The translations under genes and the position numbers were made by a program. A stretch of DNA of 64,000 bases from Rhizobium sp. 9140 (lineage in GTDB: Bacteria > Pseudomonadota > Alphaproteobacteria > Rhizobiales > Rhizobiaceae): assembly GCF_900067135.1 (NCBI RefSeq), contig NZ_FJUR01000002.1, forward strand, positions 733,501 through 797,500, read 5' to 3'. A model generated the notes under the pieces. It saw only the letters and a list, made by a program, of their open reading frames with translations, made no database searches and was not told the origin of the DNA. Below, one piece after another: positions 22,145 through 41,237 of this stretch. How positions within the stretch are numbered: the first letter of the stretch is position 1; each line of letters opens with the position of its first letter.

Positions 22145-22170
22145 TTCGTGCCTCGCAAGGAGAACGTTAC
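22145..22170 (-). promoter_or_regulatory. Predicted sigma-F promoter of sigF-nrsF
   Basis: Reads GTAACG, 16 bases, CGAA on the minus strand, directed at the sigma gene 14 bases away. Same element and same spacing as eight other sites in the window, so the sigma factor probably drives its own synthesis. Confidence 0.82.
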
Positions 22171-22238
22171 AGCGCGGGAACGGCTCATTTGCTGTCATGT
22201 GAAAAGACCATCTGGAGCTGCAACGGCGAGCGAAGTCA

Positions 22239-22850
22239 TCAGGCGGAGACATGCGCTGCCTCGCGAACGTCGGGTTCAAGAAGAGAAAAGACCGGACGGA
22301 TCAGTCCCTGGAGCAATTCCCCCTCCGGCCGCGTTCTGGCCAGGACCCTGATGCCCACTAAGGTGCTCAGAAGCGTGCGAGCCACATCATCCGCCTTGTG
22401 ACGCGAATTGACCGTGCCATCGACTTGGCCCCGTTCGACGCACCGTCGGAAAAAGGCCTCCACCTGCCGCAGAACCTCGGCGACCACCCGCTGAAATTCG
22501 GAATCATGCGGGGCCACCTCCAGCGCGGAGTTGACCAACATACATCCCTTGCGTTTCGTGTCGCTCAACGAGCGCTCGATGATTTCCTCGAAAAACGCCC
22601 TGATCGCCTCCCGTGGAGGCTTGGTTTCAAAGCGCCCCACCCGGTCGCCAAAACTCCTCTTGACGTAAAAATCAAGGGCTTTGCGATAAACAGCGCGCTT
22701 GTCGCCGAAAGCATTGTAAATGCTGGCGGTGGTTATTCCCATCGCGGTGGCAAGATCCCGGATCGATGTCGTCTCGTATCCATGCTGCCAGAAACGCTCC
22801 ACGGCAAGCACAAGAACGGCTTCCTCTTCGAATTCTCTCGGTCTTGCCAT
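22239..22850 (-). CDS. TetR-family transcriptional regulator
   Basis: 203 residues. N-terminal TetR helix-turn-helix: MARPREFEEEAVL, then TTSIRDLATAMGITTASIYN. The C-terminal domain resembles the AcuR/YcdC-like group (KGCMLVNSALEVAPHD). It is divergent from a decayed peroxiredoxin gene that begins about 140 bases away, which was probably its original target. With that target broken, its present role is unclear. Confidence 0.92.
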   Translation of the reverse strand: MARPREFEEEAVLVLAVERFWQHGYETTSIRDLATAMGITTASIYNAFGDKRAVYRKALDFYVKRSFGDRVGRFETKPPREAIRAFFEEIIERSLSDTKRKGCMLVNSALEVAPHDSEFQRVVAEVLRQVEAFFRRCVERGQVDGTVNSRHKADDVARTLLSTLVGIRVLARTRPEGELLQGLIRPVFSLLEPDVREAAHVSA

Positions 22851-22979
22851 TCACCCTGTCTCGCAAAACGTTGATCGGATCGACCTGTAGCTCTACCGAT
22901 GCATTTTATAACAACCGATTTAAAACTCAAGAAGCCGTGTCGCAATCTCTTGCGAAAACGCCGCTTACGCGCTGAAAGG

Positions 22980-23326
22980 AACGATCACTTGAGGATTGAA
23001 CAGGAACTCCTCGATTACAGAACCCGTTTCAAAGCCAGCGCACCTGCCGGCATCGCCGCATTTCTGGACTCCAAAATCGAGGAACTGACCGCGATATTTC
23101 TGTTCAACGGCGTGCCGAACGTCAGAGATCTGGCTCCGGACGTCTCTCTGCCCGGAGTGACCGGCGCGCCTCTTTCTCTCGACGGAGCCTTGGACTGCTA
23201 ATCCCCGCCATCTTCGCGATCGGAGGCCACCGGAAGATAATGCTGGTTCACAGCGAGATCGACTATCGCAAGCGGCTTTCCCCGGACGCCATCGGCGAAG
23301 CCCTGCACGCAGCGGAGATGGCTTGA
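22980..23326 (+). pseudogene. Peroxiredoxin (AhpC/TSA) remnant with internal deletion
   Basis: Two pieces of an alkyl hydroperoxide reductase-like peroxiredoxin. The first (TTG at 22989 after GAAAGGA, to the stop at 23199-23201) matches the N-terminal part: QELLDYRTRFKASAPAGIAA, then VRDLAPDVSLPGVTG. The second (23204-23326, different frame) matches the C-terminus: PAIFAIGGHRKIMLVHSEID, then YRKRLSPDAIGEAL. The middle, some 100 residues including the catalytic Cys motif, is gone. The product would be inactive. It is divergent from the TetR gene. Confidence 0.8.
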
Positions 23327-23363
23327 TACCGGCATTGTCCGGTATCATTGTTTGAACCTGTGC

Positions 23364-24110
23364 TCAGGAACGCGGCATGGCCTTATCCAGAAAGGCCAGC
23401 ACACGCCTCCAGTTTTCCTCGGCGCCCAACGGGTTCGTGTCACGTCGAAGGCTGGAGGAGCCGTGGACCCCGTGCCGGGGCACATATCGTTGCGCCCGAC
23501 CGTTCGACACAGCTTTCGCCAAGGCCATCGCGCTGGCGATTTCGTCGGCGTCCGGCGCGGAGGTTATATAGACAGGTATCTCCAGTCGGGATGCCGCTTT
23601 CTGGATCGAATAGCCGGCAATGTACTCGGCCGGCGAAAAGGCCAGGAGAGCCTTTACCTCCGGATGGTTTGCCGCAACGACAAACACCAGCGCAGAAGAA
23701 TAGCTCGATCCCCATAAGGCAATGGGAGCGCTGGCACGAGCCCTGGCGAAACTGAGGGAAGCCTCAAGATCAGGTAGGGTGTCGGCGTAGGTAACGCCTG
23801 ACCGGACGTTCGCAGCCGTTTCGTTCACCGAGCCCCAGAGGTCGCTGCCGGAACGCAGATCGACGGCAAGGGTTTCGAAACCCGCCTTGTTAAGGAGCGG
23901 TGCCAGCGGTTCATATTCGCCTTTGTTCGATGCGGCCATGTGAAACAGGAGGATTGTGCCTCTGGCTGGCCCCACCGGCTTGCGGAGATCGGCGTAGATT
24001 CGCACACCGTCCTTGGCCGCGAATGACACCTCGTCAGCCAGCGCCGGAAAGACTGCCGTAAGGTTCAGGGCTGCGGCGATAGCGAGACCGACAAGATGAG
24101 GCAAGCGCAT
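23364..24110 (-). CDS. Secreted alpha/beta-hydrolase (dienelactone hydrolase-like)
   Basis: 248 residues from the ATG at 24110, which has GGAG 6 bases upstream; the frame reaches 24152. A signal peptide is evident (LVGLAIAAALNLTAVFPALA). The fold signatures are LLFHMAASNKGEY, the nucleophile elbow GSSYSS, and a late His (PRHGVHGSSS). Substrate unknown; likely a periplasmic ester. A GTAACA-N16-CGTA element (24146-24171) lies about 36 bases upstream, so it probably belongs to the sigma-F regulon. It is divergent from the DUF1223 gene, which has its own such element. Confidence 0.88.
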   Translation of the reverse strand: MRLPHLVGLAIAAALNLTAVFPALADEVSFAAKDGVRIYADLRKPVGPARGTILLFHMAASNKGEYEPLAPLLNKAGFETLAVDLRSGSDLWGSVNETAANVRSGVTYADTLPDLEASLSFARARASAPIALWGSSYSSALVFVVAANHPEVKALLAFSPAEYIAGYSIQKAASRLEIPVYITSAPDADEIASAMALAKAVSNGRAQRYVPRHGVHGSSSLRRDTNPLGAEENWRRVLAFLDKAMPRS

Positions 24111-24145
24111 GGGAACTCCGGGAAATATTTGCATTGAGCCTCTGA

Positions 24146-24171
24146 TACGCACCCGCGTCCACGGTTGTTAC
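24146..24171 (-). promoter_or_regulatory. Predicted sigma-F promoter of the secreted hydrolase
   Basis: GTAACA, 16 bases, CGTA on the minus strand; the -10-like half ends 36 bases before the ATG at 24110. It sits 44 bases from an opposite-facing copy (24216-24241), a divergent pair. Confidence 0.82.
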
Positions 24172-24215
24172 CGAACGGATTGATATTCGTCGGTCGATCA
24201 CGAGGCTGTGACCCC

Positions 24216-24241
24216 GTAACATCCGGGCGTGTCCCGACGAA
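24216..24241 (+). promoter_or_regulatory. Predicted sigma-F promoter of the DUF1223 gene
   Basis: GTAACA, 16 bases, CGAA on the plus strand, ending 55 bases before the ATG at 24297. Faces away from the hydrolase promoter. Confidence 0.82.
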
Positions 24242-24296
24242 TCCGCACTGTCCCTCTGGATCCTCCAGGGCGTGACGATCCTTTCGGGAGCGTGCC

Positions 24297-24995
24297 ATGG
24301 TTTACCTCAGCGAAATCCAAAAAGCGGCCTTTGTCTTGTCTGTCGTCGTCGGGATCACGATGCCTGCTCATGCGGCAGATCGCTCACCGACGGTCGTTGA
24401 ACTGTTCACCAGTCAGGGCTGCTCGTCCTGTCCGCCGGCCAATGCCAATCTTACCAAAATCAGCAAGCGGCCGGATGTTCTGGTGCTGAGTTTTTGAGTG
24501 ACGTATTGGGATTATCTCGGCTGGAGAGACACCTACGGAAAGCCGGAATTCACCGAACGCCAGATTGCCTACGAGCCGGCTCTCAACCAAGCTGGTCCCT
24601 ACACCCCGCAAATGGTCGTCAATGGACGCGCGACCGTCGTCGGAAACCGGTTCGACGACGTCCTATCGCTTCTCGACGATGCCCAACCTGGGAAAGGGCC
24701 AAGTCTCGCACTGATCGGACAGAAGGTGCGGATCGGTTCGTCCGATATCGACACGCCGGCCGACGTCTGGCTGGTTCGCTATAATCCTTCCGTCGAAGCG
24801 GTTCCGGTGGCGCGGGGAGAAAACGGCGGCAGGACGCTGCAGCATACACATGTGGTTCACCGTCTTGACCGGCTGGGAGTTTGGAATGGCCAGCGCGCGT
24901 CTTTCACCCTGCCGGCCTCGGAACACGGCTTGAAGACCGCAGTTCTCGTCCAGCGCCCGAACGGCGGCCCGATCCTGTCTGCAGTCACGGATTAG
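24297..24995 (+). pseudogene. DUF1223 family secreted thioredoxin-like protein, interrupted by in-frame TGA
   Basis: The frame encodes a normal-length DUF1223 protein (232 residues plus the stop) but has TGA at 24495-24497. Upstream part (66 residues): signal peptide ending AHAADRS, then the VELFTSQGCSSCPPANA motif with the redox CxxC. Downstream part (165 residues) resumes in the same frame as VTYWDYLGWRDTYGKPEF and keeps the family motifs TPQMVVNGRATVVG and HVVHRLDRLGVW. The start has GGGAG 7 bases upstream. The site normally holds a non-Cys residue, so selenocysteine is unlikely; nonsense mutation, readthrough or sequencing error are the options. Confidence 0.8.
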
Positions 24996-25017
24996 ACCTC
25001 CGCTGTCCGTCTCGTTT

Positions 25018-27284: not shown

Positions 27285-27797
27285 TCATGCTGGATAAAGC
27301 CGCCTCAGGAGATGGTCGATGGACAGTTTGCCCGGCCCCCATGCCATCAACGACAGGGCCATCGCAGCCCAGGTGATGTGTATCGGCCATCCATCGGGCA
27401 CGGTCAATTCGACGATCAGCGTCATGAACAGCAGGCCGGTGGCGGCAAAGCGGGTGCCAAGGCCGAGGACCAGCAGGATCGGGAACGTTATCTCGGCGAC
27501 GCCTGATAGAAACGCCATCGTTTCCGGCGCCGGATAAGGATAGGGGCCGCCCGGAAGATGCAGCCTGAATTCGTCGGTGAAGAGGATGATGGCTGTGTCA
27601 TTCAGCTGCAGGAAGCCATCCCATTTCAGCACCCCGGACTTCCAGAAGGGCACGGCCAGCGCGACGCGCATGACGGCCTGGACGAATGTCGGCTGGGCGA
27701 TGGCGCGAATAAGGCTCTGTGCCATCTCCACACGTGTCGCGATCGGCTGCAGCCTGGCCTTGATGGAAGGCTGCTGGGTGGTGGTCGATATCATCAT
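27285..27797 (-). CDS. DoxX family membrane protein, last gene of the bufferin operon
   Basis: 170 residues, four hydrophobic segments, DoxX family (MRVALAVPFWKSGVLKWDGF, then PETMAFLSGVAEITFPILL). It overlaps the bufC-like gene by ATGA (27794-27797). DoxX proteins routinely close bufferin operons; their function there is not settled, with a role in membrane redox proposed for the family. Confidence 0.9.
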   Translation of the reverse strand: MMISTTTQQPSIKARLQPIATRVEMAQSLIRAIAQPTFVQAVMRVALAVPFWKSGVLKWDGFLQLNDTAIILFTDEFRLHLPGGPYPYPAPETMAFLSGVAEITFPILLVLGLGTRFAATGLLFMTLIVELTVPDGWPIHITWAAMALSLMAWGPGKLSIDHLLRRLYPA

Positions 27798-28594
27798 GCG
27801 TCTCCAAGAGTGATGGCAGAAAACGCGCCGGCTTCGATCATGCCCGCGACGCTGGCGCCGATGTCAAAGGACGAAGAAGCGTCAACAGCCCTGGCTGCGG
27901 CGATGCCCAAGGGCTCGCCCGAAATCAAGGATAAAAGAAATTCTCCGCCACCAAGCGGAAGGTGGCGCACGACAACGTCCATCGCGGGCCGGGTGATCAG
28001 CGCATCCTCCGCCTCGGCGGTCTCGATCGGCCCGGCGGGACCGTCGCTGCGGTTGGCGGCAAAGATCGTCAGTGCCGGATAGGCCGAGCGAATGATCCGC
28101 GTCGCCGGATGGGCGATGAACACAAGCTCACCGAGCCGCTCCGGCGGCACACAGGAAAGCGCATCGGCTGCAAGCGGCTCGACATCCGCAGCATGGTAGG
28201 CATCCAGCCATGCGCGCTCGATCCTTGCGACATCGGCAAGCCAGGGCACCGATTGGGCATATTCATATTGCGCGATGAAATCAGGAAAGTCGCGGCCATA
28301 TTCGAAGAGCAATGGCGATGTCGGCGGCGTGGCGCGAAGGTGAAAGCGGGCCATGGCGCGAAAGAAGTCAGCTCCGGTGAGACGCTGGACGGCGGGGTAA
28401 ATCCCGATAAGCGCGTCAATCAGGCTGACGGTGACGTTGTTGCGGTAAATATTGTAGCGCTTGACCGCGCCCTTGCCCTTCGGTCCTACGACGCCCTCAG
28501 GCGTTCTGGCATCGGGGTCGATCAGGGCCGATGAAAATTCAGCGCTATAGGCAAGGGGCCGCGCGGGTCCGCCAATAAAATCAAGCTGCGGCAT
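27794..28594 (-). CDS. bufC: BufC/HvfC-type peptide modification partner (DUF2063)
   Basis: 266 residues. The N-terminal DUF2063 domain is recognisable ([51 protein letters not shown]). This subunit pairs with the DUF692/MNIO enzyme encoded just upstream and is thought to deliver the precursor peptide. It overlaps bufB by 14 bases and the DoxX gene by 4, a tightly coupled operon. Confidence 0.9.
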
Positions 28595-29507
28595 GGCTTT
28601 GATTCCGTCCGATGATCGTGGCGTAGTGGTCGAGAATGGCCTGCGCTGCGATGGCTTCCGCCCTTAATATCGGCCAGTCCGGTGTCTTGCTGTCCCATTC
28701 GACAAGCGTCGGTATGGGGCCGCAACGGGCAATCACAATCTCATAGAGTTTCCAGACCGCGTCAGCCACCGGCCCATCATGGCTGTCGATCAGGAGCAGG
28801 TCGCCCTCGTCGTCGGATTGTTCGGCATGGCCGGCCAGGTGGATTTCTCCGACAGCGGCAAGCGGAAAGTCGGCCAGATAATCCAGCGCCGAAAAGCCGT
28901 GATTGGTCGCGGAGACGAAGACATTGTTGACATCGAGCAGAAGGCCACAACCGGTACGCTTGGCAATCGACCGGATAAAGTCGGTCTCGCTCATCATCGA
29001 CTGGCTGAATGTCACATAGGTTGACGGATTTTCAAGAAGGATCGGGCGACCGATGGTCGCCTGAACTTCATCGATGTGGTCGCAGACGCGCGTCAGGCTA
29101 TCCCCCGTGTAGGGAAGTGACAGCAAGTCATTGAAGAACGTCGTCTGATGCGTCGACCAGGCGAGATGCTCGGAAACCAAGGCCGGTTCATAGCGCTCCA
29201 CAAGCGCGCGAAAACGTTGCAGATGCACCTTGTCGAGAGGCTGAGGGCTGCCGATCGACATGCAAACGCCATGCAGCGACACGGGGTTGTCGCGGCGGAT
29301 CTGCTCCAGAATCCGGTGTGGCGGTCCACCGGCACCCATGTAGTTTTCGGCATGCACTTCGAAGAAGCCGCGTTGCGGCCCGTCGGCGGCGATTGCCGGC
29401 AGATGTCCATGCTTGAAGCTTGTTCCTGCCAGCCCCGCAATCGGATGGATCGGAAAGCGGAGAGTTTGTGCCGCAACCGCTGTTGTTGGCATCATATCTT
29501 TGGTCAT
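28581..29507 (-). CDS. bufB: MNIO-family (DUF692) peptide-modifying enzyme, BufB
   Basis: 308 residues, TIM-barrel multinuclear non-haem iron oxygenase, expected to convert cysteines of the BufA peptide to thiooxazole-type groups. Metal-ligand motifs visible: [56 protein letters not shown] and LVEWD. ATG 29507 has GGAGAG upstream; the frame extends to 29693 without family similarity. It sits 44 bases after the bufA-like gene. The cytoplasmic enzyme acts before export of BufA. Confidence 0.93.
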
Positions 29508-29551: not shown

Positions 29552-29857
29552 TTAAATGGCCTTCAGAGAGCCATGATGGCCGTTCGGCAGAACAATCGAG
29601 GTGCAAGTGCCGCCTTGGACGAACTTCCACGCGTTGCCCTGAAAGTCGACGGTCGAAGTGCCCTGGCAGGAAGTACCGGCACCGGCGGCACAATCATTCT
29701 GCCCTTTGAGGGCAATGCCGAAGCACTTTTCCTTATGCGCGGCAACAGCCGCTTTGGCTTCGGCCTTCGTGAGCGGTCCAGCGCTGACCATCGAAGCGAG
29801 AGCGGTGGTTATAGCGCCCGCGAGCACCACCGAATTGATTGCAGTTTTCACAGACAT
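29552..29857 (-). CDS. bufA: Bufferin-type metallophore precursor, BufA1 (DUF2282)
   Basis: 101 residues: signal peptide ([19 protein letters not shown]) followed by a short mature peptide with the bufferin cysteines [24 protein letters not shown] and GTCTS. In Caulobacter such peptides, after modification by BufB/BufC, bind copper in the periplasm. ATG 29857 has GGAG 6 bases upstream; an ATG at 29869 and a longer frame exist. A GTAACG-N16-CGAA element (29904-29929) lies 46 bases upstream, so sigma-F control is likely. It is first of bufA-bufB-bufC-doxX. Confidence 0.93.
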
Positions 29858-29903: not shown

Positions 29904-29929
29904 TTCGCCAATGTCCTGACGTTCGTTAC
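29904..29929 (-). promoter_or_regulatory. Predicted sigma-F promoter of the bufferin operon
   Basis: GTAACG, 16 bases, CGAA on the minus strand. The GTAAC half also forms part of an inverted repeat (GTTAC...GTAAC, 29926-29946) whose other arm faces msrP but lacks a CGNA partner. Confidence 0.85.
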
Positions 29930-30052: not shown

Positions 30053-30078
30053 GTAACACCGGCGGTGTCTCCTACGTA
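30053..30078 (+). promoter_or_regulatory. Predicted sigma-F promoter of msrPQ
   Basis: GTAACA, 16 bases, CGTA on the plus strand, ending 38 bases before the msrP ATG. Divergent from the bufferin promoter. Confidence 0.83.
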
Positions 30079-30116: not shown

Positions 30117-31067
30117 ATGTCGATCTATCGCCCGCCGCACATTTCCTCTTCCGAAATTACACCGCGCCCGGTCTATCTCAAGCGTCGAGAATTCCTCGGA
30201 ACGGCCCTGGCCGGCGCCGGGATCACGGTTGCGAGCGGCAGGGGCGCATTCGCCGGTACGCTGAACGCTACGAAGACGGATTATACCGTCAAGGAGAAAC
30301 TGACGCCGATCAAGGACGTGACGACCTACAACAATTTTTACGAGTTCGGCCTCGATAAGAGTGACCCTTCCGCGCTTTCCGGCGACTTCAAGCCAAGCCC
30401 GTGGACGATCACGGTCGATGGCATGGTCGGCAAACCGCAAACATTCGACATCGAGGCGCTGATCAAGGCGTTCCCGCCGGAAGAGCGCATCTATCGGATG
30501 CGCTGCGTCGAAGCCTGGTCGATGGTCATTCCCTGGGACGGCTTTCCGCTGGCGGCGCTGCTCGACAAGGTGGAGCCGCTTGGCAGCGCCAAGTTCGTTG
30601 CCTTCGAGACCATCGTGCGGCCTTCGGAGATGCCTGGTCAAGCGGGCGCCTTTCAATCCCTGAACTGGCCTTATGTCGAAGGGCTGCGCCTTGACGAAGC
30701 CCGCAACCCGCTGACCCTGCTCGCGGTCGGGCTGTACGGCGAGACGCTGCTCCCTCAGAATGGCGCACCGATCCGCCTCGTCGTTCCGTGGAAATACGGG
30801 TTCAAGGGCATCAAGTCGATCGTGCGCATCACGCTCACCGACAAACAGCCTGTCAACACCTGGCAGGCGGCCAACAGCCAAGAGTACGGCTTCTATGCAA
30901 ACGTCAATCCTGCAGTCGATCATCCGCGCTGGAGCCAGGCCACTGAACGGCGCATTGGCGAAGGTGGATTCTTCAGTGCCAGCCGCCACCCTACCCTGCC
31001 TTTCAACGGCTATGGCGATCAGGTCGCCAGCCTGTATAGCGGCATGGATCTGAAAGCCAACTTCTGA
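30117..31067 (+). CDS. msrP: Protein-methionine-sulfoxide reductase catalytic subunit MsrP
   Basis: 316 residues, periplasmic molybdopterin enzyme (YedY) that repairs oxidised methionines in envelope proteins. A Tat signal is present ([20 protein letters not shown]). The molybdenum-ligand cysteine is Cys130 ([16 protein letters not shown]). Other family motifs: [12 protein letters not shown] near residue 75 and [21 protein letters not shown] lies 7 bases before the ATG. The stop shares one base with the msrQ start. The upstream GTAACA-N16-CGTA element suggests stress control by the sigma factor at 21573. Confidence 0.96.
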
Positions 31068-31708
31068 TGATCTCGTCATTCGCTCTGCCGAAACGTTGGC
31101 AACCGGCTTCGGTCTGGGGGCTTTATTTCATCGGGCTGCTGCCGGCGGGATGGACATTCTATCTCGGCGCCACCGACCAACTCGGCGCCGATGCGATCAA
31201 GACCTTCGAGCTGTTCCTCGGACTTTGGGCGGTCCGCTTTCTGCTGCTGACGCTGGCGATCACGCCACTTCGGGATCTCTTCGGCTGGAACTATCTGCGC
31301 TATCGCCGAGCCCTCGGTTTGCTCTGCTTCTACTATGCGCTGATGCATCTGACCGTCTACATCGTTCTCGATCAGGCGCTTGAGGTGCAGACCGTCATCA
31401 ACGACGTGCTGAGGCGGCCGTTCATCATGTTCGGCATGGCGGGCTTCGTGATGCTGCTGATGCTCGCCGTGACATCGAACACCTTCGCGATCAGACGCCT
31501 GGGCAAGAAATGGATCTGGCTGCATCGCCTGATCTCTGTCGTCGCGGCCTCCAGTGCCCTGCATTTCGCGCTGTCTACCAAGATTCTGTCGCTGGAGCAG
31601 TTTATCTATATCGGTTTGCTGATCGCGATGATCCTCTATCGAGCATACCGGCCGATCATGATGGAGAGGCGGCGGGTGGCGCGAAAAGCAGGAACGGCAT
31701 CCCGCTGA
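31067..31708 (+). CDS. msrQ: Haem-binding membrane subunit MsrQ
   Basis: 213 residues, six hydrophobic segments, ferric-reductase-like (YedZ) b-type cytochrome that passes quinone electrons to MsrP. Conserved features are TLAITPLRDLFGWNYLRYRR, ALMHLTVYIVLDQ and WLHRLISVVAASSALHF, which include the haem-ligand histidines. It is coupled to msrP by a TGATG overlap. Confidence 0.95.
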   Translation: MISSFALPKRWQPASVWGLYFIGLLPAGWTFYLGATDQLGADAIKTFELFLGLWAVRFLLLTLAITPLRDLFGWNYLRYRRALGLLCFYYALMHLTVYIVLDQALEVQTVINDVLRRPFIMFGMAGFVMLLMLAVTSNTFAIRRLGKKWIWLHRLISVVAASSALHFALSTKILSLEQFIYIGLLIAMILYRAYRPIMMERRRVARKAGTASR

Positions 31709-32210
31709 ATGCACGGACGGTCGACCGGACGTGTCCAGCCGTGCCGGCACGCGCCGGCCCTTGCCCGTATCGCCTTGCCAACATTCGGCAGACAGCGCCT
31801 GCGCGGCGTTTGTCACCTCCAGGGAAAGCACTTGCTCCCGCTGGTGCGGGCAGGCCGACTGCTGGCTTTTCCCAACGCCCTTCAATCGTGCCTGACGCAA
31901 ATGCGGTCCGCCTCGGTCATCCCGAATTCCTGACGACGGCCAACGCGATCTGCCACAACACCCCTCCGCAATCCGGCCGGTACAGTACATCGCACAGCCT
32001 GTCGCATTCTCGAAGTCGCGTGGTTTTGCTTCAAGTGTTTTGAACCGTTTACACGCATGTGACCGAACGTCGGGAAATTTTATGAGCGCCGCTCGAAAAT
32101 GAAAAACCGGCTGTAACGAACCGCTCCTCTCAACCGTATTGTGCATTGTCAGACGCGTGCAGCCACCTCCTCCGGTCGCTATCGACGTCCCCGCCTGAAG
32201 GAGCAAACGA
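31709..32210. other. Intergenic region holding the TPR-gene promoter
   Basis: 502 bases between msrQ and the TPR gene. No frame on either strand resembles a known protein. The only feature I can support is the GTAACG-N16-CGTA element at 32113-32138. The first 350 bases look like former coding sequence in composition, but I cannot identify it. Confidence 0.5.
32113..32138 (+). promoter_or_regulatory. Predicted sigma-F promoter of the TPR gene
   Basis: GTAACG, 16 bases, CGTA on the plus strand, ending 72 bases before the ATG at 32211. It could drive five co-directed genes to 38134. Confidence 0.8.
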
Positions 32211-33539
32211 ATGAGACGCGATGCTTATGGTCTGGTGACCAGCACGAATAGCGACGAGGCACAGAGAGCATTCGAGACTGCGGTCTTCGGGTTGGCGGCG
32301 CATCGCCCCACCGCGGGGGCTGCCATTCAGTCGGCTCTCAAGGCTGATCCGAACCACGTCGCCGGTCATGTTCTGAAGGGCTTTGCAAACCTGATCCTGG
32401 CGCGCTCCGAGCTCGACGTTCCGGCCGCGGCCGCACTTGGCGATGCCCGGGCGGCGTTGGCGATCAAGGGCGGTGGGTCCGGCGACGAACGTATTCTGGT
32501 TAAGGCCCTCGAATTTGCCGCTCGCGGCGCCTTTCATCAGGCCGCCGATCTTCTCGATCACGGCTTCGAGGATAGCCCAACCCCTTTTCTTCCCTTCAAG
32601 ATTTCCCAAGCCCTGCGTTTTATGCTGGGCGATGCCGCTGGCATGCTCGATGCAAGCACCCGCGCTGTCGATCGACTGACATTTGAATCGCCGGCGGCAG
32701 GTTTTGTCTTGGGCTGCCATGCCTTTTCCCTCGAAGAGCATGGACGCTACGGCGAGGCTCTGACCATAGGGCAGCGCGCCGTCGCGCTGCAGCCCGATGA
32801 TTCCTGGGGGCTGCATGCGGTTTCGCATGTCTTCGAGATGCGTGGCGATACGCTCGAGGGCATCGATTGGCTCGAAAGGGGTCGAAAATCGTGGTCCCGC
32901 TGCAACAATTTTTCGTTTCACATGGCCTGGCATCTGGCGCTTCTGCATCTCGAACGTGGCGACCATGGCCGCGTTCTGCAGATTTACGACGACGAGGTCC
33001 GCCCGCAGCAAACCGACGATTTCCGTGACATGGCCAATGCCATCTCGCTGTTATGGCGCATGCAGCAATCCGGCGTTCACGTTGGCGATCGCTGGTCGGA
33101 TGTCGCGGACATCGCCTACCGTCGCCGGTCCGACACGACCCTGATCTTTGCCGCTCTGCATAATCTCGCGGCCATGATTGCGGTCGGCGAACAGGAGGGC
33201 GCAGCCGAACTCGTGGCCCAGATCGAAGCCAAAGCGCTCGGCACGGACGATCAGGCTCGCGTCGCCGCCGAGATCGGCATCCCGATGGCGAGGATTCTGG
33301 CCGGTCTCGATCGATCTGCCGACCGCCGCATGCTCGAGCGGATGGTGACCAATCTTCCCAGGATCGGTGGCAGCAACGCCCAGCGCGATTTCTTCGTGCT
33401 TGCCCTTGCCAAGGCGGTCGGGACGGGCGGCGACAGGGCCGGTGTCACACGCATCGGACAGATCCGGCAACGCCTGAAAGCGCAGGACCGCCTTTTCAGA
33501 TCCATCGAACACTCGGTCAGCATTCGACTGTCCGCATAG
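32211..33539 (+). CDS. Tetratricopeptide repeat protein, 442 residues
   Basis: Cytoplasmic TPR-type protein with no signal peptide. It matches, from memory, the StaR/TTC38-like group: VLGCHAFSLEEHGRYGEALT, WGLHAVSHVFEMRGDTLEGI, and FSFHMAWHLALLHLERGDHG are the characteristic segments, with helical repeats throughout. It starts after AAGGAG (7 bases upstream). A sigma-F-type promoter precedes it, and a small membrane protein gene follows 26 bases after. Biochemical role unknown. Confidence 0.88.
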   Translation: MRRDAYGLVTSTNSDEAQRAFETAVFGLAAHRPTAGAAIQSALKADPNHVAGHVLKGFANLILARSELDVPAAAALGDARAALAIKGGGSGDERILVKALEFAARGAFHQAADLLDHGFEDSPTPFLPFKISQALRFMLGDAAGMLDASTRAVDRLTFESPAAGFVLGCHAFSLEEHGRYGEALTIGQRAVALQPDDSWGLHAVSHVFEMRGDTLEGIDWLERGRKSWSRCNNFSFHMAWHLALLHLERGDHGRVLQIYDDEVRPQQTDDFRDMANAISLLWRMQQSGVHVGDRWSDVADIAYRRRSDTTLIFAALHNLAAMIAVGEQEGAAELVAQIEAKALGTDDQARVAAEIGIPMARILAGLDRSADRRMLERMVTNLPRIGGSNAQRDFFVLALAKAVGTGGDRAGVTRIGQIRQRLKAQDRLFRSIEHSVSIRLSA

Positions 33540-33565: not shown

Positions 33566-34048
33566 ATGTCCATGATGGAAATGCAGAAAAGCCGTATCTT
33601 TCCGGAAATCCGGCCCAGCCTCGGGCGCTCGATCATCCTGTCGGGCCTGGCAGCCGATATCACCTGGGAGATCTGGGCGCGGCTGGTCACGCCGCTCTGG
33701 ATCGGCGGCCCACTGGAGCCGGCAGCCCTCGTCCAGTCGGTGTTCGGCTTCAACAATCTGCTGGCTGCCGAAGCCATCCATGCCATCGTCGGCATCCTCT
33801 TCTATCCGATCGGCTATCTCTTTGTCGCACGACCTTTGCAGCGGCTGATGTTCCCCACACTGCCCTTGTTGCTGACGGGCATGGGGTTCGGCGTCGGGCT
33901 CTGGGTCTTCGCGCTCTACGTCATGGCCCATCTCTTCGGTGGCCAGCCGGCCTTCCTCGGCTTCGTCCCTTTGACCTGGGCATCCCTGGTCGGCCACATT
34001 CTGTTCGGCACGGTTGTCGCGTTTGTCATCCGCCAGATCGAACGCTGA
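33566..34048 (+). CDS. Small integral membrane protein, 160 residues
   Basis: Four hydrophobic segments (around residues 22-42, 60-85, 95-120 and 130-155). I do not know a function; similar proteins are annotated hypothetical in rhizobia. GAAGGAAAG precedes the ATG. It lies between the TPR gene and the TPP enzyme gene, all in the same direction, and is probably co-transcribed from 32113. Confidence 0.8.
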   Translation: MSMMEMQKSRIFPEIRPSLGRSIILSGLAADITWEIWARLVTPLWIGGPLEPAALVQSVFGFNNLLAAEAIHAIVGILFYPIGYLFVARPLQRLMFPTLPLLLTGMGFGVGLWVFALYVMAHLFGGQPAFLGFVPLTWASLVGHILFGTVVAFVIRQIER

Positions 34049-34121: not shown

Positions 34122-35789
34122 ATGACATTCGGCGGCCAAACCCTGCGAGACAGCATCGTGACCCTTGATATCCCCGCCACGCCGAGAGTGGCCGACATCG
34201 TGGCCCGCACCCTTCATGCCCATGGGGTCCGGCATGCGTTCGGCATGCCGGGTGGAGAGGTGGTGACCCTGATCGACGGCCTGCAGGCGGCCGGCATTGC
34301 CTTCCACCTTGCCCGTCATGAGACGGCTGCGGCCATCATGGCGGCCGGCGCGAGCGCGATGACGCAAAGCCCGCAGCTTCTTGTCACGACGGTCGGCCCC
34401 GGACTGGCCAATGCCGTCAACGGCATTGCCGATGCCGCACAGGAGCGGGTGCCGTTGCTTGTCATCTCCGGCATTGTCGATCGGGCAACGCGCGCGCGTT
34501 ACACCCACCAGGTCATCGACCACGCCCAATTGCTTCGTCCCCTTGTCAAAGCCTCTTTCGAGGTCGAGCCGGAAAGCGCCTCTGCCACCGTCGCGCGCGC
34601 GGTTGCACTGGCGCTGAGCGAGCCGATGGGGCCTGTACATCTCGACCTCTCCCCCGCCAGTGCGGCCGCATTGTCGCCAAGTGCCGGGATCGTATCGCCA
34701 CCCCACCGCCTGAGGCCAACGGTGGCGACGTCGGATCAAACCGTGCGGATGCTGTCTGAACGGATCGCTGCTGCACAACGGCCGCTCATTCTCGCGGGTC
34801 TCGAGGCCGTGCGCGATCATGCCGGCCCGGCTCTTCGGCATCTGTCGGAAACGATCGGTGCGCCCGTGATCACGACCTACAAGGCAAAGGGTCTCATTGC
34901 CGAAGACCATCCGCTGGCGCTGGGCGGAGCAGGCCTGTCGCCGCTTGCCGATCGCCTCCTGCTCGATCTCCTGGGGATGTCGGACCTGATCCTTCTGGTC
35001 GGCTACGATCCGATCGAGATGCGGCTCGGCTGGCTGGATTTCGTGCGCAATCCCCAGATTCTGGTGGAGATCACGACGGCGACAGCCGATCACGCCATGC
35101 ACCATGCAGAACAGGTGATCCAGACGGCGCCACGCGCGTTCTTGCAGGCGCTGTCGGCGGGGCTTGTCGATCGGACGACGTGGCCCGGCGGTGAGCCCTT
35201 CAAAACGAAGGCCGAACTGACGCGCATCTTTGCCACTAGGTCCCCTTGGGGGCCGCATGCGATCATCGACGCGCTCAACGCGGCGGTCGATCCGGAAGCT
35301 GTCGTCACGGTCGACAGCGGTGCACACCGGATCCTGTTATCGCAGAAATGGATCGCCCAACGCCCGACATCCCTGCTGCAATCATCGGGCCTCTGCACGA
35401 TGAACGCGGCGTTGCCCCTGGCGATCGGCGCCAAGGTCGCCGACCCCTCCCGTCAGGTGTTTGCCGTAATGGGCGACGGTGGCCTTGAGATGGGTATCGG
35501 CGAACTGGCGACGCTGCGCGATCTCGGCCTGCCGATCGTCATCGTGCTTTTCCAGGACCGCAGTCTGGCGCTGATTGCCCTGAAACAGGCGTCCGCCGGT
35601 CTTCAAAGCGCCGGCGTCGTGCTTGGCGAGACGGATTTTGCCATGGTCGCGCGCGGCTTTGGCGGCTATGGCATTCATGTGGAGACGAGTAATGACCTCC
35701 GTAACGCGCTTGAGGCCGCCCGCAGGCGCACAACCTTCACCCTCATCGCCTGCCGGTTCGACGCCAGCGCCTATGATGGCGCCTTCTGA
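34122..35789 (+). CDS. Thiamine pyrophosphate-dependent enzyme (acetolactate synthase-like)
   Basis: 555 residues with the three-domain ThDP fold. The N-terminal PYR domain has the proton-relay Glu (LARHETAAAIMAAG); the middle domain is Rossmann-like; the C-terminal PP domain has GDG (VMGDGGLEMGIGELAT). The usual Asn pair about 25 residues after GDG reads Gln-Asp (VIVLFQDRSLALI), so magnesium binding may be altered. ATG 34122 is the best in-frame ATG but has a weak ribosome site; GTG at 34160 is possible and 34014 improbable. It overlaps the OpgC-like gene. Substrate unknown; with the CaiB gene beyond, an acyl-CoA decarboxylase role is imaginable. Confidence 0.85.
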   Translation: MTFGGQTLRDSIVTLDIPATPRVADIVARTLHAHGVRHAFGMPGGEVVTLIDGLQAAGIAFHLARHETAAAIMAAGASAMTQSPQLLVTTVGPGLANAVNGIADAAQERVPLLVISGIVDRATRARYTHQVIDHAQLLRPLVKASFEVEPESASATVARAVALALSEPMGPVHLDLSPASAAALSPSAGIVSPPHRLRPTVATSDQTVRMLSERIAAAQRPLILAGLEAVRDHAGPALRHLSETIGAPVITTYKAKGLIAEDHPLALGGAGLSPLADRLLLDLLGMSDLILLVGYDPIEMRLGWLDFVRNPQILVEITTATADHAMHHAEQVIQTAPRAFLQALSAGLVDRTTWPGGEPFKTKAELTRIFATRSPWGPHAIIDALNAAVDPEAVVTVDSGAHRILLSQKWIAQRPTSLLQSSGLCTMNAALPLAIGAKVADPSRQVFAVMGDGGLEMGIGELATLRDLGLPIVIVLFQDRSLALIALKQASAGLQSAGVVLGETDFAMVARGFGGYGIHVETSNDLRNALEAARRRTTFTLIACRFDASAYDGAF

Positions 35790-36918
35790 TCCGGCCCCGG
35801 CAGGCGGTCCTCTCGCTCAGACGATCAAACGTCCCCGCGATCCGCGGCTCGATTTTTTCCGCGGCATCGGCATGCTGATCATTCTCTTGGCGCATATCCC
35901 CGATGACGGCTGGGCGCTCTGGATACCGGCGCGGTTCGGTTTTTCCGACGCGACGGAGATGTTCGTTTTCCAGTCGGGAATGGCATCGGCGATCGCCTTT
36001 GGATCGACGTTCGATCGAAGCGGCGCGCTGATCCTCTTTGCCCGCGTTGCCCAGCGCATCTGGCAGATCTTCTGGGCGCATATCGTCGTTTTTATCGTCG
36101 TCACGGCCATCATGGTGGTCGCGGGAACGCGCTACGACGGCGTCACCTATGTCGAAAGCCTCAATCTCGTACCCTTCATGAGGGATCCCGGGAACCTCCT
36201 CGCGGGCCTGCTGACGCTCACCTACGTGCCGAACTATTTCGATATTCTGCCGATGTATATCGTCATTCTCGCACTGATGCCGGTCATGATCCTTGCGTCG
36301 AAAGCCCATCGGCACCTGCCCTTTTTCCTCATGATCGGCTTATGGTCGGCGACCCAGTTCGGCCTGACGGGGCTTCCGGCCGAACCGTGGTCGGATCGTC
36401 AGTGGTTCTTCAATCCTTTCGGTTGGCAGTTGCTGTTTTTCACCGGTTATTTTCTGATGCGCGGCAATCTGCCGTCGCCCGCTTACGATCGCAGGCTGGT
36501 GGCGCTGGCAATCGCGGTGGTGGTTCTCACCGTGCCGTTTGCCTGGGTGCGCTTTCAGGACGTTCATCCCTTCTTCCAGATGGCGGCGGCAAAACTCGCC
36601 CCCCTCACCGACAAGACGAATTTCGGGCTGCTGCGCTTCGTGCACTTTCTGGCGCTCTGCTATATCGCGGTGCAACTGGCGGGTCGGAAAGGCGAACGTC
36701 TGCGCGGTCGCATCGTGCGCGTGCTGACGGTGGTGGGGCAACAATCGCTTGCCGTGTTCCTTACCGGCATGGTCATCGCCCACCCCATCGGCATCGCGCT
36801 CGACCACGCCGGCCGAACCGTCCCGGCAGAGATCGCCGGCAATCTGTTTGGGTTCTGTACGATGATTGCGACCGCCTATCTCGTCCGTTGGTTCAAAAGC
36901 TCTCCCTGGAAATCATGA
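35773..36918 (+). CDS. OpgC family membrane acyltransferase
   Basis: 381 residues with about ten hydrophobic segments. The family's start is clear (RDPRLDFFRGIGMLIILLAH, then GFSDATEMFVFQSGMASAIA). OpgC proteins transfer succinyl groups to periplasmic glucans, and rhizobia have several copies. ATG 35773 or 35776 lies inside the end of the TPP gene (17-base overlap), implying translational coupling. Whether the acyl donor is linked to the CoA-transferase encoded next is open. Confidence 0.9.
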   Translation: MMAPSDPAPAGGPLAQTIKRPRDPRLDFFRGIGMLIILLAHIPDDGWALWIPARFGFSDATEMFVFQSGMASAIAFGSTFDRSGALILFARVAQRIWQIFWAHIVVFIVVTAIMVVAGTRYDGVTYVESLNLVPFMRDPGNLLAGLLTLTYVPNYFDILPMYIVILALMPVMILASKAHRHLPFFLMIGLWSATQFGLTGLPAEPWSDRQWFFNPFGWQLLFFTGYFLMRGNLPSPAYDRRLVALAIAVVVLTVPFAWVRFQDVHPFFQMAAAKLAPLTDKTNFGLLRFVHFLALCYIAVQLAGRKGERLRGRIVRVLTVVGQQSLAVFLTGMVIAHPIGIALDHAGRTVPAEIAGNLFGFCTMIATAYLVRWFKSSPWKS

Positions 36919-36925
36919 GGCCCCG

Positions 36926-38134
36926 ATGACCGAAATCCGACGCGCCGCCAGCCTCGACGGGGTGCGCATCCTCGACCTCTCGCGCATTCTGGCAGGACCC
37001 ACATCGACGCAATTGCTCGCCGATCTCGGCGCTGATGTCATCAAGGTCGAGCGCCCGGATGTCGGCGACGATACGCGAAGCTGGGGACCGCCCTTCGTCA
37101 GCGATGCCGATGGCAATGACAGTGACCTCAGCGCCTATTTCCTTTCGGCCAACCGCAACAAACGATCGATCGCCATCGATCTTGCCAGCGACGAGGGCGT
37201 CACCCTCATCAAGCGGCTGGCGGCGATCTCGGATGTGGTCGTCGAGAACTACAAGCCTGGCGATCTGGATCGGCGGGGACTTGGCTTTGAGGATATCCGG
37301 GCCGTGAAACCCGATATCGTCTGGTGCGCGATCTCCGGTTTCGGCCAGACCGGCCCTTATGCCGAACGCACAGGATATGATTTCCTCGTCCAGGCCATGG
37401 GCGGCATCATGAGCATTACCGGGGAAAGTGACGCTGCCGGCGGACGCCCCGTCAAGGTCGGGCTTGGCATCGCGGATGTCATGTGCGGCATGTATGCGAG
37501 TGTCGGCATCCTTGCGGCCCTTCGTCATCGCGACCGCACCGGTGAAGGCCAATATATCGACCTTGCCCTTTACGACACGCAAGTCGCCTGGCTCATCAAT
37601 GCCGCCACAAATCATCTCGTATCGGGCAAGGTGCCGGGCCGTATCGGCAACCGGCACCCGAATATTGCGCCCTATCAGACCTTTGCAACGGCGGACGGCG
37701 AAATTGCCATCGCGGTCGGCAACGACCAGCAGTTCGCGCGGTTCTGCGCGGCAATCGGTGCGACTTCACTGGCCGAAGACACGCGCTTCAGGCGCAATCG
37801 CGACCGCGTCGTTCATGTCGATGCACTGGATCTGCTGGTGACCGAGGCGCTGCGAGCCGACACCGCGGAAAATTGGGAACGACGCCTCCTCGCCGTCGAG
37901 ATCCCGGCGGGCCGCGTTGCCACCATCGATCAGGTCGTCTCCAACCCGCAGACGCTGGCGCGTGATATGGTCGTGCCGATGCAAACCACCGATGGCAAAG
38001 CGATCCGCGTGATCGGCAATCCGCTCAAAATGTCCGCCACGCCCGCCCGCTTTGACCGGGCTCCGCCACATGTCGATCAGGATCGACAGAACATTCTCGA
38101 TGAACTCGCCAAGATCGAGACGAGACGCCGGTAA
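36926..38134 (+). CDS. CaiB/BaiF (class III) CoA-transferase
   Basis: 402 residues. Family III CoA-transferase motifs: GVRILDLSRILAGPTSTQLL, ADLGADVIKVERPDVGDDTR, SANRNKRSIAIDL, and the likely catalytic Asp in IDLALYDTQVAW. It starts 8 bases after the OpgC-like gene. It moves CoA between acids such as formate/oxalate or succinate/dicarboxylates; the exact pair cannot be read. It is last of the five co-directed genes that follow the promoter at 32113. Confidence 0.92.
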   Translation: MTEIRRAASLDGVRILDLSRILAGPTSTQLLADLGADVIKVERPDVGDDTRSWGPPFVSDADGNDSDLSAYFLSANRNKRSIAIDLASDEGVTLIKRLAAISDVVVENYKPGDLDRRGLGFEDIRAVKPDIVWCAISGFGQTGPYAERTGYDFLVQAMGGIMSITGESDAAGGRPVKVGLGIADVMCGMYASVGILAALRHRDRTGEGQYIDLALYDTQVAWLINAATNHLVSGKVPGRIGNRHPNIAPYQTFATADGEIAIAVGNDQQFARFCAAIGATSLAEDTRFRRNRDRVVHVDALDLLVTEALRADTAENWERRLLAVEIPAGRVATIDQVVSNPQTLARDMVVPMQTTDGKAIRVIGNPLKMSATPARFDRAPPHVDQDRQNILDELAKIETRRR

Positions 38135-38139
38135 CAGGC

Positions 38140-39056: not shown

Positions 39057-39515
39057 TCACGGCGCCGCCTGTGCCCTGACAGTCTCCCAGTTCGCATTGG
39101 CCTTCGCGATATTGCCGCTCACATCCTGTCGCCAGGTCTTGAGGACACTGTCGTTGTAATTGAGATAAAGCTTGTTACCCACCACCGTGAAGGCCTGGGG
39201 CTCGGTTGTCGCCTTGTGTCCCTGAGCCGTCCCAAACGCGCAGTAGCCGCCATACTGCGGCACGAAATGTGCCGGATCGGCGGTGGACATGTTTCGATGG
39301 GCTGCCGATGCGAAACGGAACGTCGCACCTTGATAACTTGCCGTGTATTTTTCCGAGCCCTTTACCGGTTTATGATCGGTAAAATAGGCGACCGGATCAT
39401 AACCATTGATCGCGACCCCTCCGGTCGCGAAGATCTCTTGCGCGAAAACGTTGGCGCTCAGCGAAAGCGTCAGAGCAGAGGCGAGCGGAAGTATTTGACG
39501 TAACAAGACGGTCAT
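39057..39515 (-). CDS. YHS domain-containing protein, exported
   Basis: 152 residues: signal peptide ([18 protein letters not shown]), then the YHS core GGVAINGYDPVAYFTDHKPV, KGSEKYTASYQGATFRFAS and YGGYCAFGTAQGHK. YHS domains are linked to metal, notably copper, binding. AAAGGA precedes the ATG. A GTAACC-N16-CGAA element at 39554-39579 ends 38 bases upstream, making it a likely sigma-F target alongside the bufferin operon. Confidence 0.9.
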   Translation of the reverse strand: MTVLLRQILPLASALTLSLSANVFAQEIFATGGVAINGYDPVAYFTDHKPVKGSEKYTASYQGATFRFASAAHRNMSTADPAHFVPQYGGYCAFGTAQGHKATTEPQAFTVVGNKLYLNYNDSVLKTWRQDVSGNIAKANANWETVRAQAAP

Positions 39516-39553
39516 TTTTCAATCCTTTCATGAGATGATCACCACCCGCCTAT

Positions 39554-39579
39554 TTCGCCGTGGCAAGGGGAGAGGTTAC
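39554..39579 (-). promoter_or_regulatory. Predicted sigma-F promoter of the YHS gene
   Basis: GTAACC, 16 bases, CGAA on the minus strand; identical to the Caulobacter sigma-F consensus as I recall it. Confidence 0.84.
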
Positions 39580-39626
39580 ATCCATCACGATCACGAGTTC
39601 GTGCGGGACAGGCCAGGAAGCCGGAC

Positions 39627-40175
39627 CTATTGGGAACACATGGCAAGTGCGACTTTCCCTGTGAGCTCCCGGATCACGCTGTCTTTTTCTGCGGCCTCCC
39701 GTGTCAGGTTGCGGATCTGAGCTTCTGAAGAGCGGGAAACCTCCCAGAACGTCACGGTGAAGATGATCGGAACCGTCATGACGGAACCATCGCGGGACTG
39801 ATGGTCCTCTTGGGGGGCCTGTTCCGGCGTCGCAACACGACCCCACAGCCTGAGAGCGCAGGCATTCCCGACCTCGCATCGAAGAACGGCATCCGGCGTC
39901 GCCTCAGGGCTGCTCATCGCATGGCGAAGCGTGACGGCGTCGGCATGAAACCGAAAGGTAGAATGATCGATGACATGGGGCGTCATCACCTGACCGGACA
40001 CAACTTGGAAGACGATCCCCGGCGCAATGCGCGCATAATCGATAGCAATCCGCCGTTGGCTCTGTACCAGATGTGCAATGCTCGGCGTGATCTTCTGTCC
40101 CCAGACGGCAGCACCTGCGGCAAAGTGGTAGACGACAGGATGTCCCCTATTGGGCGTGACAACCGAATTCAGCAT
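39627..40175 (-). CDS. Hypothetical protein, 182 residues, predicted sigma-F target
   Basis: I do not recognise this protein. It starts MLNSVVTPNRGHPVVYHFAA with a weakly hydrophobic N-terminus that is not a clear signal peptide. The middle is histidine-rich (VMTPHVIDHSTFRFHADAV), the segment near 135-150 is hydrophobic (VMTVPIIFTVTFWEVS), and the end is a charged helix (AQIRNLTREAAEKDSVIREL). ATG 40175 has CAGGAG 7 bases upstream. A GTAACG-N16-CGTA element is 84 bases upstream. It could be a heme or metal protein, but this is a guess. Confidence 0.7.
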   Translation of the reverse strand: MLNSVVTPNRGHPVVYHFAAGAAVWGQKITPSIAHLVQSQRRIAIDYARIAPGIVFQVVSGQVMTPHVIDHSTFRFHADAVTLRHAMSSPEATPDAVLRCEVGNACALRLWGRVATPEQAPQEDHQSRDGSVMTVPIIFTVTFWEVSRSSEAQIRNLTREAAEKDSVIRELTGKVALAMCSQ

Positions 40176-40259
40176 CGCTCTGCTCCTGTGGGATACCGGC
40201 GCTACAATGCCGCCGGGACGTTTTGAAAGTGCGTGGTGGCCCTTTCCACTATGATCCAA

Positions 40260-40285
40260 TACGTCTGACGGGGACGGTTCGTTAC
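40260..40285 (-). promoter_or_regulatory. Predicted sigma-F promoter of the 182-residue protein gene
   Basis: GTAACG, 16 bases, CGTA on the minus strand, between the poly(hydroxybutyrate) depolymerase-like gene and the start at 40175. Confidence 0.8.
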
Positions 40286-40321
40286 AGGGCGGCGAAATCT
40301 ACCCATCCCGCCCGGCAGGAA

Positions 40322-41134
40322 TTATTTCGGGAATCCCAGAACGGTGAGGCCGGCGTCGAGCCAGCCCGCACCGGCCTCGTGGCCGCGGTTGTGAACACAC
40401 ATGATGCTGTCACCGCGAAGGCAACCGGGAACGTCGTCACAGACAACGCCGCCTACGACAATCTGCCTGGCATGCGTCACATCGCACTGCGACCGCTGGC
40501 GCATGATGGCAAGGCTTTTAAACGCATCACCTTGATGAAAGGCCTTGCCGATGGCGCGCCCTGCCAAGGGAAACGTGGTATCGGCGCTGCCATGAAAATG
40601 CACCATGGGCGGGACGTCGGAAACGCAATCGGACGCCTTCGGTAACGGGTCCCAGAAGACGCCGGAGAACGTCACCATACCGGCCGCCTTCTCACCCTGC
40701 TGGCAGGCTGTGTACCAGGCCATCGAAGCGCCGATTGAGAACCCGCCAATCACGATCCGGTCCGGCGTAAAATGCTCCCGCTGCCTTAGATCATCGAAAA
40801 GGCCGCCGATAAATCGCTTTTCATCTCGCCGGGCGCTTGGACTGCCGGGAAAGGACCATCCGCCATCGATGCCATCGACCGCCACATAGGCGAGGTGATG
40901 CGCAAGTGTCATGGCGACCAGGGGACGTTGCTCCATTTGCAGATCCGCCGATCCCTTCCATCCGTGAAAATAGACGAAGGCGCCTCGCACATCGCCGTCC
41001 GCGGGAAAGGCGATGCGATACGCGCCCCCGGGTATCGGACAGCCGGTCTTCACACCGCAAGGAACCTCGGCAATGGCTGGGGAAGCCAGCCCAATCGCCA
41101 GCAAGGCAAGAACGGATAAACGCATGGTCGACAT
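40322..41134 (-). CDS. Secreted alpha/beta-hydrolase, LpqC/PHB-depolymerase-like
   Basis: 270 residues with a signal peptide (LSVLALLAIGLASPAIAE). Fold elements: VYFHGWKGSADLQ (oxyanion region), GGFSIGASMAWY (nucleophile Ser), VHFHGSADTTFPL (acid) and a late His (CVHNRGHEAG). Several cysteines may form disulfides. ATG 41134 or 41125 are both possible. A GTAACA-N16-CGAA element is 77 bases upstream. Likely substrate: an extracytoplasmic ester or polyester, unproven. Confidence 0.86.
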   Translation of the reverse strand: MSTMRLSVLALLAIGLASPAIAEVPCGVKTGCPIPGGAYRIAFPADGDVRGAFVYFHGWKGSADLQMEQRPLVAMTLAHHLAYVAVDGIDGGWSFPGSPSARRDEKRFIGGLFDDLRQREHFTPDRIVIGGFSIGASMAWYTACQQGEKAAGMVTFSGVFWDPLPKASDCVSDVPPMVHFHGSADTTFPLAGRAIGKAFHQGDAFKSLAIMRQRSQCDVTHARQIVVGGVVCDDVPGCLRGDSIMCVHNRGHEAGAGWLDAGLTVLGFPK

Positions 41135-41211
41135 CTCATCTCGATGAATTGGCTTTCACGTCCAAGGGGCAGTTGGCCTCAAGCGGGTCCGCAGCGGCCC
41201 ACGATGGACAG

Positions 41212-41237
41212 TTCGTCCAGGAGAGGCGATCTGTTAC
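41212..41237 (-). promoter_or_regulatory. Predicted sigma-F promoter of the LpqC-like hydrolase
   Basis: GTAACA, 16 bases, CGAA on the minus strand. It is the rightmost of the nine sites. Confidence 0.8.

Follow-up and report, generated by a model that had tools for sequence, protein, structure and literature searches.

Which regulator would read a short sequence element that recurs nine times within 19 kb of a rhizobial contig? The question is raised by a stretch of 64,000 nucleotides from Rhizobium sp. 9140 (positions 733,501 to 797,500 of contig NZ_FJUR01000002.1, or C2:733501-797500, here called the window), in which the element GTAAC-N17-CGWA stands nine times ahead of a gene. The nine elements are very likely the -35/-10 promoters of an extracytoplasmic function (ECF) sigma factor of the ECF16 (SigF) type that drives a local regulon of nine units, and together they very probably make the region a stress-response cluster complete in itself, which surpasses the systems studied so far both in the number of promoters and in the variety of genes. 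The element is the published ECF16/SigF promoter, and the known SigF targets, namely sigF-nrsF, the bufferin operon and MsrP, here bear it; the SigF reading is supported by the placement, conservation and gene context described below.

Nine copies of one element

Between positions 22145 and 41237 of the window there are nine exact matches to GTAAC-N17-CGWA, compared with a mean of 0.26 (maximum 2) in 100 shuffles. The preliminary description of this DNA had placed them at 22145, 24146, 24216, 29904, 30053, 32113, 39554, 40260 and 41212, always intergenic, with one fixed spacer and 14-84 bases away from a start codon. These nine positions are correct, every match is exact, the distance between GTAAC and CGWA is 17 bases in every one of them, and none overlaps a called gene, in a region (20124-41987) with a non-coding share of 15%. 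The distances to the start codon are 14 bases for sigF, 35 for the hydrolase gene Hyd1, 55 for DUF1223, 46 for bufferin, 38 for MsrP, 72 for the TPR gene, 38 for YHS, 84 for an orphan gene and 77 for a second hydrolase gene, Abh2, and thus range from 14 to 84 as had been claimed. Each element is oriented toward its gene, its two boxes are not inverted repeats, and the spacer sequences vary from site to site and among orthologues. The set is strict, and within the window neither degenerate copies nor copies with another spacer exceed background: with spacers of 14-20 scanned, the sole extra site is an N16 copy at 11625, outside the island stretch, and a scan allowing one mismatch finds 17 sites in total (8 beyond the nine) against 9.5 expected.

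Chance, or a compositional artefact of a shared repeat, could in principle scatter such matches, and GTAAC by itself is not rare, with 44 copies on both strands of the window and 21 in 20001-42000. CGNA follows at N17 in nine of the 44, and the eight copies previously cited as partnerless do lack it, seven of them lying 1-22 bases from where they had been put. Given the shuffle count of 9 against 0.26, spacers that differ in sequence and a complete lack of sense matches at control genes of relatives (0/197), the chance explanation is rejected, with a probability that is practically nil.

The sigF element lies 14 bases before the ATG, and therefore the sigF mRNA leader would measure only about 8 bases. 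A promoter-to-ATG gap of 10-16 bases is seen at sigF in 28 of the 29 element-bearing cases, and the ribosome site is not clear by eye.

In the whole genome (5.43 Mb, 7 contigs) there are 25 exact matches, fewer than for the backward pattern, which gives 61; the density elsewhere in the genome would give 0.056 in the 19 kb that hold nine. The 16 matches beyond the island, classified by open reading frame length, codon-position GC content and eye, with no homology search, comprise 13 in genes, two intergenic ones (L022 and L008) and one of ambiguous position (L024). The L022 element precedes a second sigF-nrsF pair, while L008 and L024 are possible extra targets, candidate start codons lying about 220 and 255 bases downstream of L008. 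On the exact element, to which the genome-wide search was confined, no genome-wide regulon is seen, the exceptions being the second sigF and, less surely, L008 and L024. In six other genomes of the genus the number of matches ranges from 12 to 30, no 20 kb holding more than two, although NrsF matches exist in every one of them, in one case in three pieces.

Conservation in relatives

Conservation was followed in a pooled set of 67 loci, of which 21 (L119-L139) came from named genomes and 46 from other records; similarity of SigF or of DNA decided their choice, the element not being a criterion. In this selection, 29 high-scoring SigF places were fetched and some others passed over, further loci were taken from 3 of 20 rows listed (83 records) and from 14 of 40 rows listed (435 records), and the 80 loci of the named-genome set were reduced to the 21 pooled, with L140 only viewed and weak matches dropped. 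Per-gene counts refer to an exact element within 450 bases upstream of genes with at least 45% identity and at least 50% coverage; the comparison of target and control genes refers to at most 300 bases upstream, with rows below 40% identity dropped and identical upstream segments counted once. Rows under 40-50% query coverage were dropped before counting. Many loci are closely related and the counts are not independent; L120 and L135 overlap, so that one SigF gene is double in a count of 42/57 and single in 42/56, and the SigF tree holds both rows.

The element precedes 42 of 56 distinct SigF orthologues, 35 of 40 BufA orthologues (all five misses with a spacer of 16 or 18) and 10 of 11 TPR orthologues (the eleventh with a spacer of 18), as well as DUF1223 (7/8), orphan (5/5), YHS (5/7) and Hyd1 (4/5) orthologues. 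Among upstream regions of first genes, N17 is found in 112 of 153, N16 in 11 and N18 in 3, while those of control genes (NrsF, TetR, GST, DoxX, TPP, CaiB, LysR and others) show no sense match for spacers 16, 17 or 18 in 197 regions, and three antisense ones. The target regions also contain 66 antisense N17 matches, which are tentatively put down to divergent gene pairs with a common intergenic region. In the 112 distinct conserved sites, T precedes GTAAC in 62%, and A or G follows it in 98%, then A in 71%, a bias of flanking bases that was not imposed by the search pattern. Moreover, a block of Hyd1, DUF1223, YHS, orphan and Abh2 genes in Allorhizobium pseudoryzae keeps the element in five of five cases. 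Conservation at the other first genes together with absence at controls supports the extended set of SigF targets, and with it the earlier proposal that bufferin, MsrPQ, YHS, DUF1223, two secreted hydrolases, the TPR series and a protein of unknown kind are linked, though for Abh2 this part holds weakly.

The sigma factor and its tandem anti-sigma factors

A sigF-nrsF pair with the element in front, as the preliminary description had it, is indeed present. The promoter at 22145..22170 (minus strand) is an exact match preceded by T, 14 bases from the ATG, and fits (T/C)GTAAC-N17-CGAA of ECF16. The gene sigF (21573..22130, minus) encodes a protein of 185 amino acids with the ECF architecture of sigma region 2 plus region 4 (Sigma70_r2 and r4; best NCBIfam model PRK12512 with 263, cut-off 198). 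An anti-sigma gene of the NrsF (DUF1109) family lies directly downstream, and it is the first of two, nrsFa (20941..21576, minus; PF06532, 168 bits) and nrsFb (20124..20804, minus; PF06532, 170 bits), both well above the cut-off of 26.8; against the narrower NCBIfam equivalog NF042994, for which nrsFa was scanned, it scores 90.8, under the cut-off of 300.

The two NrsF proteins are 44.6% identical and both have the two known NrsF cysteines, to which nrsFa adds a third. This third cysteine occurs in 12 of 25 aligned rows, which by name and position are first copies, and the 13 rows without it are second copies, including nrsFb of the window, and two single NrsFs. The known cysteines are missing in some first copies, both of them in a Sinorhizobium mexicanum row and one in two L120 rows. 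Of the 67 loci, 10 have more than one NrsF place: there are two in nine of these loci and three in the remaining one.

In the SigF tree, the rows with at least four elements per 24 kb (9 of 68 rows, from eight loci including the window) all fall inside one clade of 17 rows with support 98/89, and this supported branch, on which the link of many-element loci to the island-type SigF rests, is suggestive.

A gene of the TetR family (22239-22850, by Pfam) stands beside sigF, and does so in several relatives, which would suit a different explanation, in which the element is the binding site of another regulator such as this TetR protein and not a promoter. Several facts speak against such an operator: the two boxes do not form an inverted repeat, the orientation is toward the gene in every case, the same element was derived by mapping transcript starts in four bacteria (in the available text of the reports cited below), and many loci in which no relative of this TetR was found still have elements ahead of sigF and of the bufferin operon. 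The operator reading is therefore rejected and considered very improbable.

Evidence against the assignment

Several observations weigh against the assignment of all nine elements to the island SigF. Fourteen of the 56 SigF orthologues are without the exact element: five have a spacer of 16 or 18, three a one-base variant near the start and one a one-base variant 306 bases away, and at five nothing was recognised. Abh2 orthologues carry it in only 2 of 8 cases, and Abh2 is the least supported target, while MsrP offers one comparison alone (1/1), and the DUF1223 target is interrupted by a stop codon. Outside the island, intergenic DNA shows no excess of the motif taken by itself; most matches there sit in genes, so a match is not in itself enough for a promoter, and what gives the motif its meaning is the island together with conservation. 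The comparison of coding and intergenic frequency that had been suggested in the preliminary description gave a background-like result outside the island (13/16 in genes). A label-change test on the SigF tree gave 8 changes, the shuffled mean being 8.6 and 165 of 500 shuffles being as low, a failure perhaps due to truncated contigs and to neighbours with fewer elements inside the clade. Additionally, promoter fusions of the related Sinorhizobium meliloti factor RpoE7 were not induced by hydrogen peroxide, cadmium or chromate, according to the available text of its report (PMC6180224).

Finally, the second sigF-nrsF pair (C2:974904-976150) has its own GTAAC-N17-CGAA and could read or share the nine promoters. 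The main rival is accordingly that the elements are ECF16 promoters driven by the second SigF (C2:974947-975480, 41% identical to the island SigF) or by both sigma factors. It gains from A. pseudoryzae, where no SigF relative was found in the 41.6 kb around the five conserved elements and the SigF listed for the replicon lies about 257 kb off; proximity is therefore not required. It loses from the relatives, whose many-element loci carry a SigF of the island-type clade, and from the 20 kb around the second SigF, which contain only its own element, and it is judged unlikely. By eye, the second pair adjoins a divergent alpha/beta hydrolase-like gene.

Proposed mechanism

If the island SigF drives all nine units, it would presumably be kept inactive at the inner membrane by NrsF, and periplasmic oxidant or metal stress acting on the cysteines (perhaps methionines) of NrsF may free it. 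SigF-RNA polymerase would then initiate at each of the nine units of the 19-kb stretch, about six bases past CGWA. Feedback would come from the sigF operon itself with its two anti-sigma genes, and the eight effector units would supply a bufferin metal-binding peptide, MsrPQ repair, YHS, DUF1223, two secreted hydrolases, the TPR-TPP-OpgC-CaiB operon and a split-barrel-like orphan. A bolder and rather doubtful extension is that the stretch is a portable stress island, in which a promoter copy for each unit allows units to be gained, lost or shuffled singly with control kept, and in which tandem NrsFs with different cysteine sets form a switch with two inputs that responds to stress by metals and oxidants (chlorine species possibly among them) in the periplasm.

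Proposed target units of the island

By Pfam, the gene order from left to right is NrsF, NrsF, ECF sigma, TetR, alpha/beta hydrolase, DUF1223, UPF0093, two GSTs, DoxX, DUF2063, MNIO, DUF2282, MsrP, MsrQ, TPR-type, orf160, thiamine pyrophosphate (TPP) enzyme, OpgC, CaiB, YHS, orphan, alpha/beta hydrolase, PNPOx, DUF1348, CMD and LysR. All eight promoters of the effector units are exact matches. In six of the nine units (Hyd1, DUF1223, bufferin, MsrP, YHS and Abh2) the leading gene opens with an export signal recognised by eye, which fits an envelope response.

The bufferin operon would be read from the promoter at 29904..29929 (minus) and contains, in that order and all on the minus strand, the DUF2282 bufferin precursor (29552..29857; PF10048), the bufferin-modifying MNIO (DUF692) enzyme (28581..29507; PF05114, 337 bits, with a start picked by eye from the ribosome site), the DUF2063 partner protein (27794..28594; PF09836) and a DoxX-family membrane protein (27285..27797; PF07681). 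These four constitute the core of the Buf1 cluster as defined in the available text of PMC12452194, which also counts sigma and NrsF genes among Buf1 cluster members. On the plus strand, the promoter at 30053..30078 precedes msrPQ, in which the molybdopterin oxidoreductase gene of MsrP, the periplasmic methionine sulfoxide reductase subunit (30117..31067; PF00174), adjoins the ferric-reductase-like gene of MsrQ, the haem membrane subunit (31067..31708; PF01794), both named from domain and partner. The following orf74 (31709-31933) has no Pfam match and is not claimed as a gene.

Also on the plus strand, the promoter at 32113..32138 heads an operon of five genes. The first encodes the TPR-type protein (32211..33539), which has no Pfam or NCBIfam match and owes its name to the annotation of its counterpart in R. 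leguminosarum WSM1689. It is followed by orf160 (33566..34048), a small hypothetical protein with no Pfam match that is co-linear in relatives (L105, L106), an acetolactate-synthase-like TPP-dependent enzyme (34122..35789; PF02776/00205/02775) for which, among the NCBIfam matches listed, all 25 models are under their cut-offs, an OpgC-family acyltransferase (35668..36918; PF10129) and a CaiB-type CoA-transferase (36926..38134; PF02515).

Two hydrolases with signal peptides seen by eye are among the proposed targets, both on the minus strand: Hyd1 (23364..24110; PF12146) behind the promoter at 24146..24171, and Abh2 (40322..41134; PF02230) behind that at 41212..41237, the WSM1689 counterpart of Abh2 being annotated as a polyhydroxybutyrate depolymerase. 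The YHS-domain protein (39057..39515, minus; promoter 39554..39579, minus), also with a signal peptide by eye, matches NF041384 with 152.6 bits (cut-off 70), with Pfam YHS below cut-off. The orphan protein (39627..40175, minus; promoter 40260..40285, minus) has 56 homologues and no Pfam match, and its predicted model resembles PNPOx-type split barrels. The DUF1223 gene (24297..24995, plus; promoter 24216..24241, plus) has an in-frame TGA at codon 67, with PF06764 matched on the downstream piece. Relatives have intact copies, and the promoter ahead of the broken gene is intact; the TGA marks a pseudogene, a recent nonsense change or a sequencing error. Selenocysteine at this TGA was considered, and the absence of cysteine there in the three relatives compared speaks against it.

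Sister islands on plasmids

Plasmid records matching part of the region come from Rhizobium in 69 of 83 cases, and the remainder nearly all from related genera, by which the host very probably belongs to the Rhizobiaceae. The plasmid islands of R. leguminosarum WSM1689, R. sullae, R. laguerreae and R. binae are like the window in SigF clade, in the TetR gene beside sigF and in an element-bearing TPR gene, and some of them share orphan, YHS or DUF1223 genes with it. The gene sets differ among the islands, as WSM1689 has an SDR-Rieske series and a chlorite dismutase gene. The sister island of R. laguerreae WSM1455 (NZ_CP088091.1, L108) carries 14 elements over 40.5 kb, together with one further SigF-like gene and one further TPR gene, and the record has five SigF places. 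In WSM1689 (L105, 15907-22471), the series from SDR to Rieske genes has its own element, and the chlorite dismutase family gene lies between the two nrsF genes, a position that gives a hint of reactive chlorine species. DUF1109 and sigma genes are listed near chlorite dismutase genes, and are described as sensing such species, in the available text of PMC9751292. In R. binae (L118, 7276-10600), IS66 genes separate an element from the hydrolase gene, so that this target has probably been naturally disconnected from its promoter.

Comparison with known systems

The promoter and sigma factor themselves are not new, and sigF-nrsF, bufferin and MsrP are already known as SigF targets. What is apparently new is the local concentration of promoters (nine here and 14 in R. 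laguerreae), the membership of YHS, DUF1223, secreted hydrolases, the TPR-TPP-OpgC-CaiB operon and the orphan protein, and the recurring tandem NrsF pair with a third cysteine in the first. In the literature searched, which covered few subscription papers, no description of an expanded local SigF cluster or of a tandem NrsF pair was found in work on NrsF and DUF1109 anti-sigma factors or on ECF16, including Rhizobium and plasmids, and nothing relevant by direct search for bufferin with sigF. Through the proposed regulon, YHS, DUF1223, the TPP/OpgC/CaiB set, the orphan and the secreted hydrolases are tied to a stress response with copper-binding and methionine-repair members, and the functions of these poorly understood proteins become testable through one sigma-factor switch. 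The island is also a natural setting in which to test how an ECF regulon expands by single units, a promoter standing before neighbouring genes, and the NrsF pair raises the question of two anti-sigma sensors on a single sigma factor.

Four studied systems can be set beside the window, each as given in the available text of its report. BcrS-AbcS, an ECF16 system of Brucella for hypochlorous acid resistance, differs in having two mapped promoters, with no bufferin and no expanded cluster in that text, and is alike in its promoter, (T/C)GTAAC-N17-CGAA by rapid amplification of 5' cDNA ends (5'RACE), and in the control of MsrPQ-type genes (PMC8315932). EcfF-OsrA of Bradyrhizobium japonicum is likewise ECF16, with a related element, GTAAC(g,a)-N14-15-(c,t)CG(t,a), a start 6 bp past the -10 by primer extension, methionine sulfoxide reductase targets and a cysteine-dependent anti-sigma factor, OsrA, which is counted as a likeness; it differs in its seven candidate promoters and other named targets, and the ECF16 promoter is there given as tGTAACc-N16-CGAA (PMC3420878).

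In Caulobacter crescentus the published SigF promoter is GTAACC-N16-CGAA, so that the match proposed in the preliminary description was right (PMC3511200). The SigF-dependent genes there are sigF-nrsF, two bufferin-type operons (CC3254-3257 and CC2907-2905) and YedY/MsrP (CC2748), as in the window, whereas Table 1 of that report has ten genes in four units (CC2748, CC2905-2907, CC3252-3253 and CC3254-3257) with one nrsF and, unlike the window, no YHS, DUF1223, secreted hydrolase or TPR-TPP-OpgC-CaiB genes (PMC3511200). RpoE7-EcfR7 of S. meliloti, whose starts were mapped by 5'RACE or RNA-seq, differs in having two promoters in one divergent pair and a single anti-sigma factor; it is like the window in belonging to the same bacterial family, in its GTAAC-N16/17-CGAA element, since by our own count the printed promoters are N17 for the bufferin-type SMb20530 and N16 for rpoE7, and in having a bufferin-type operon as main target (PMC6180224).

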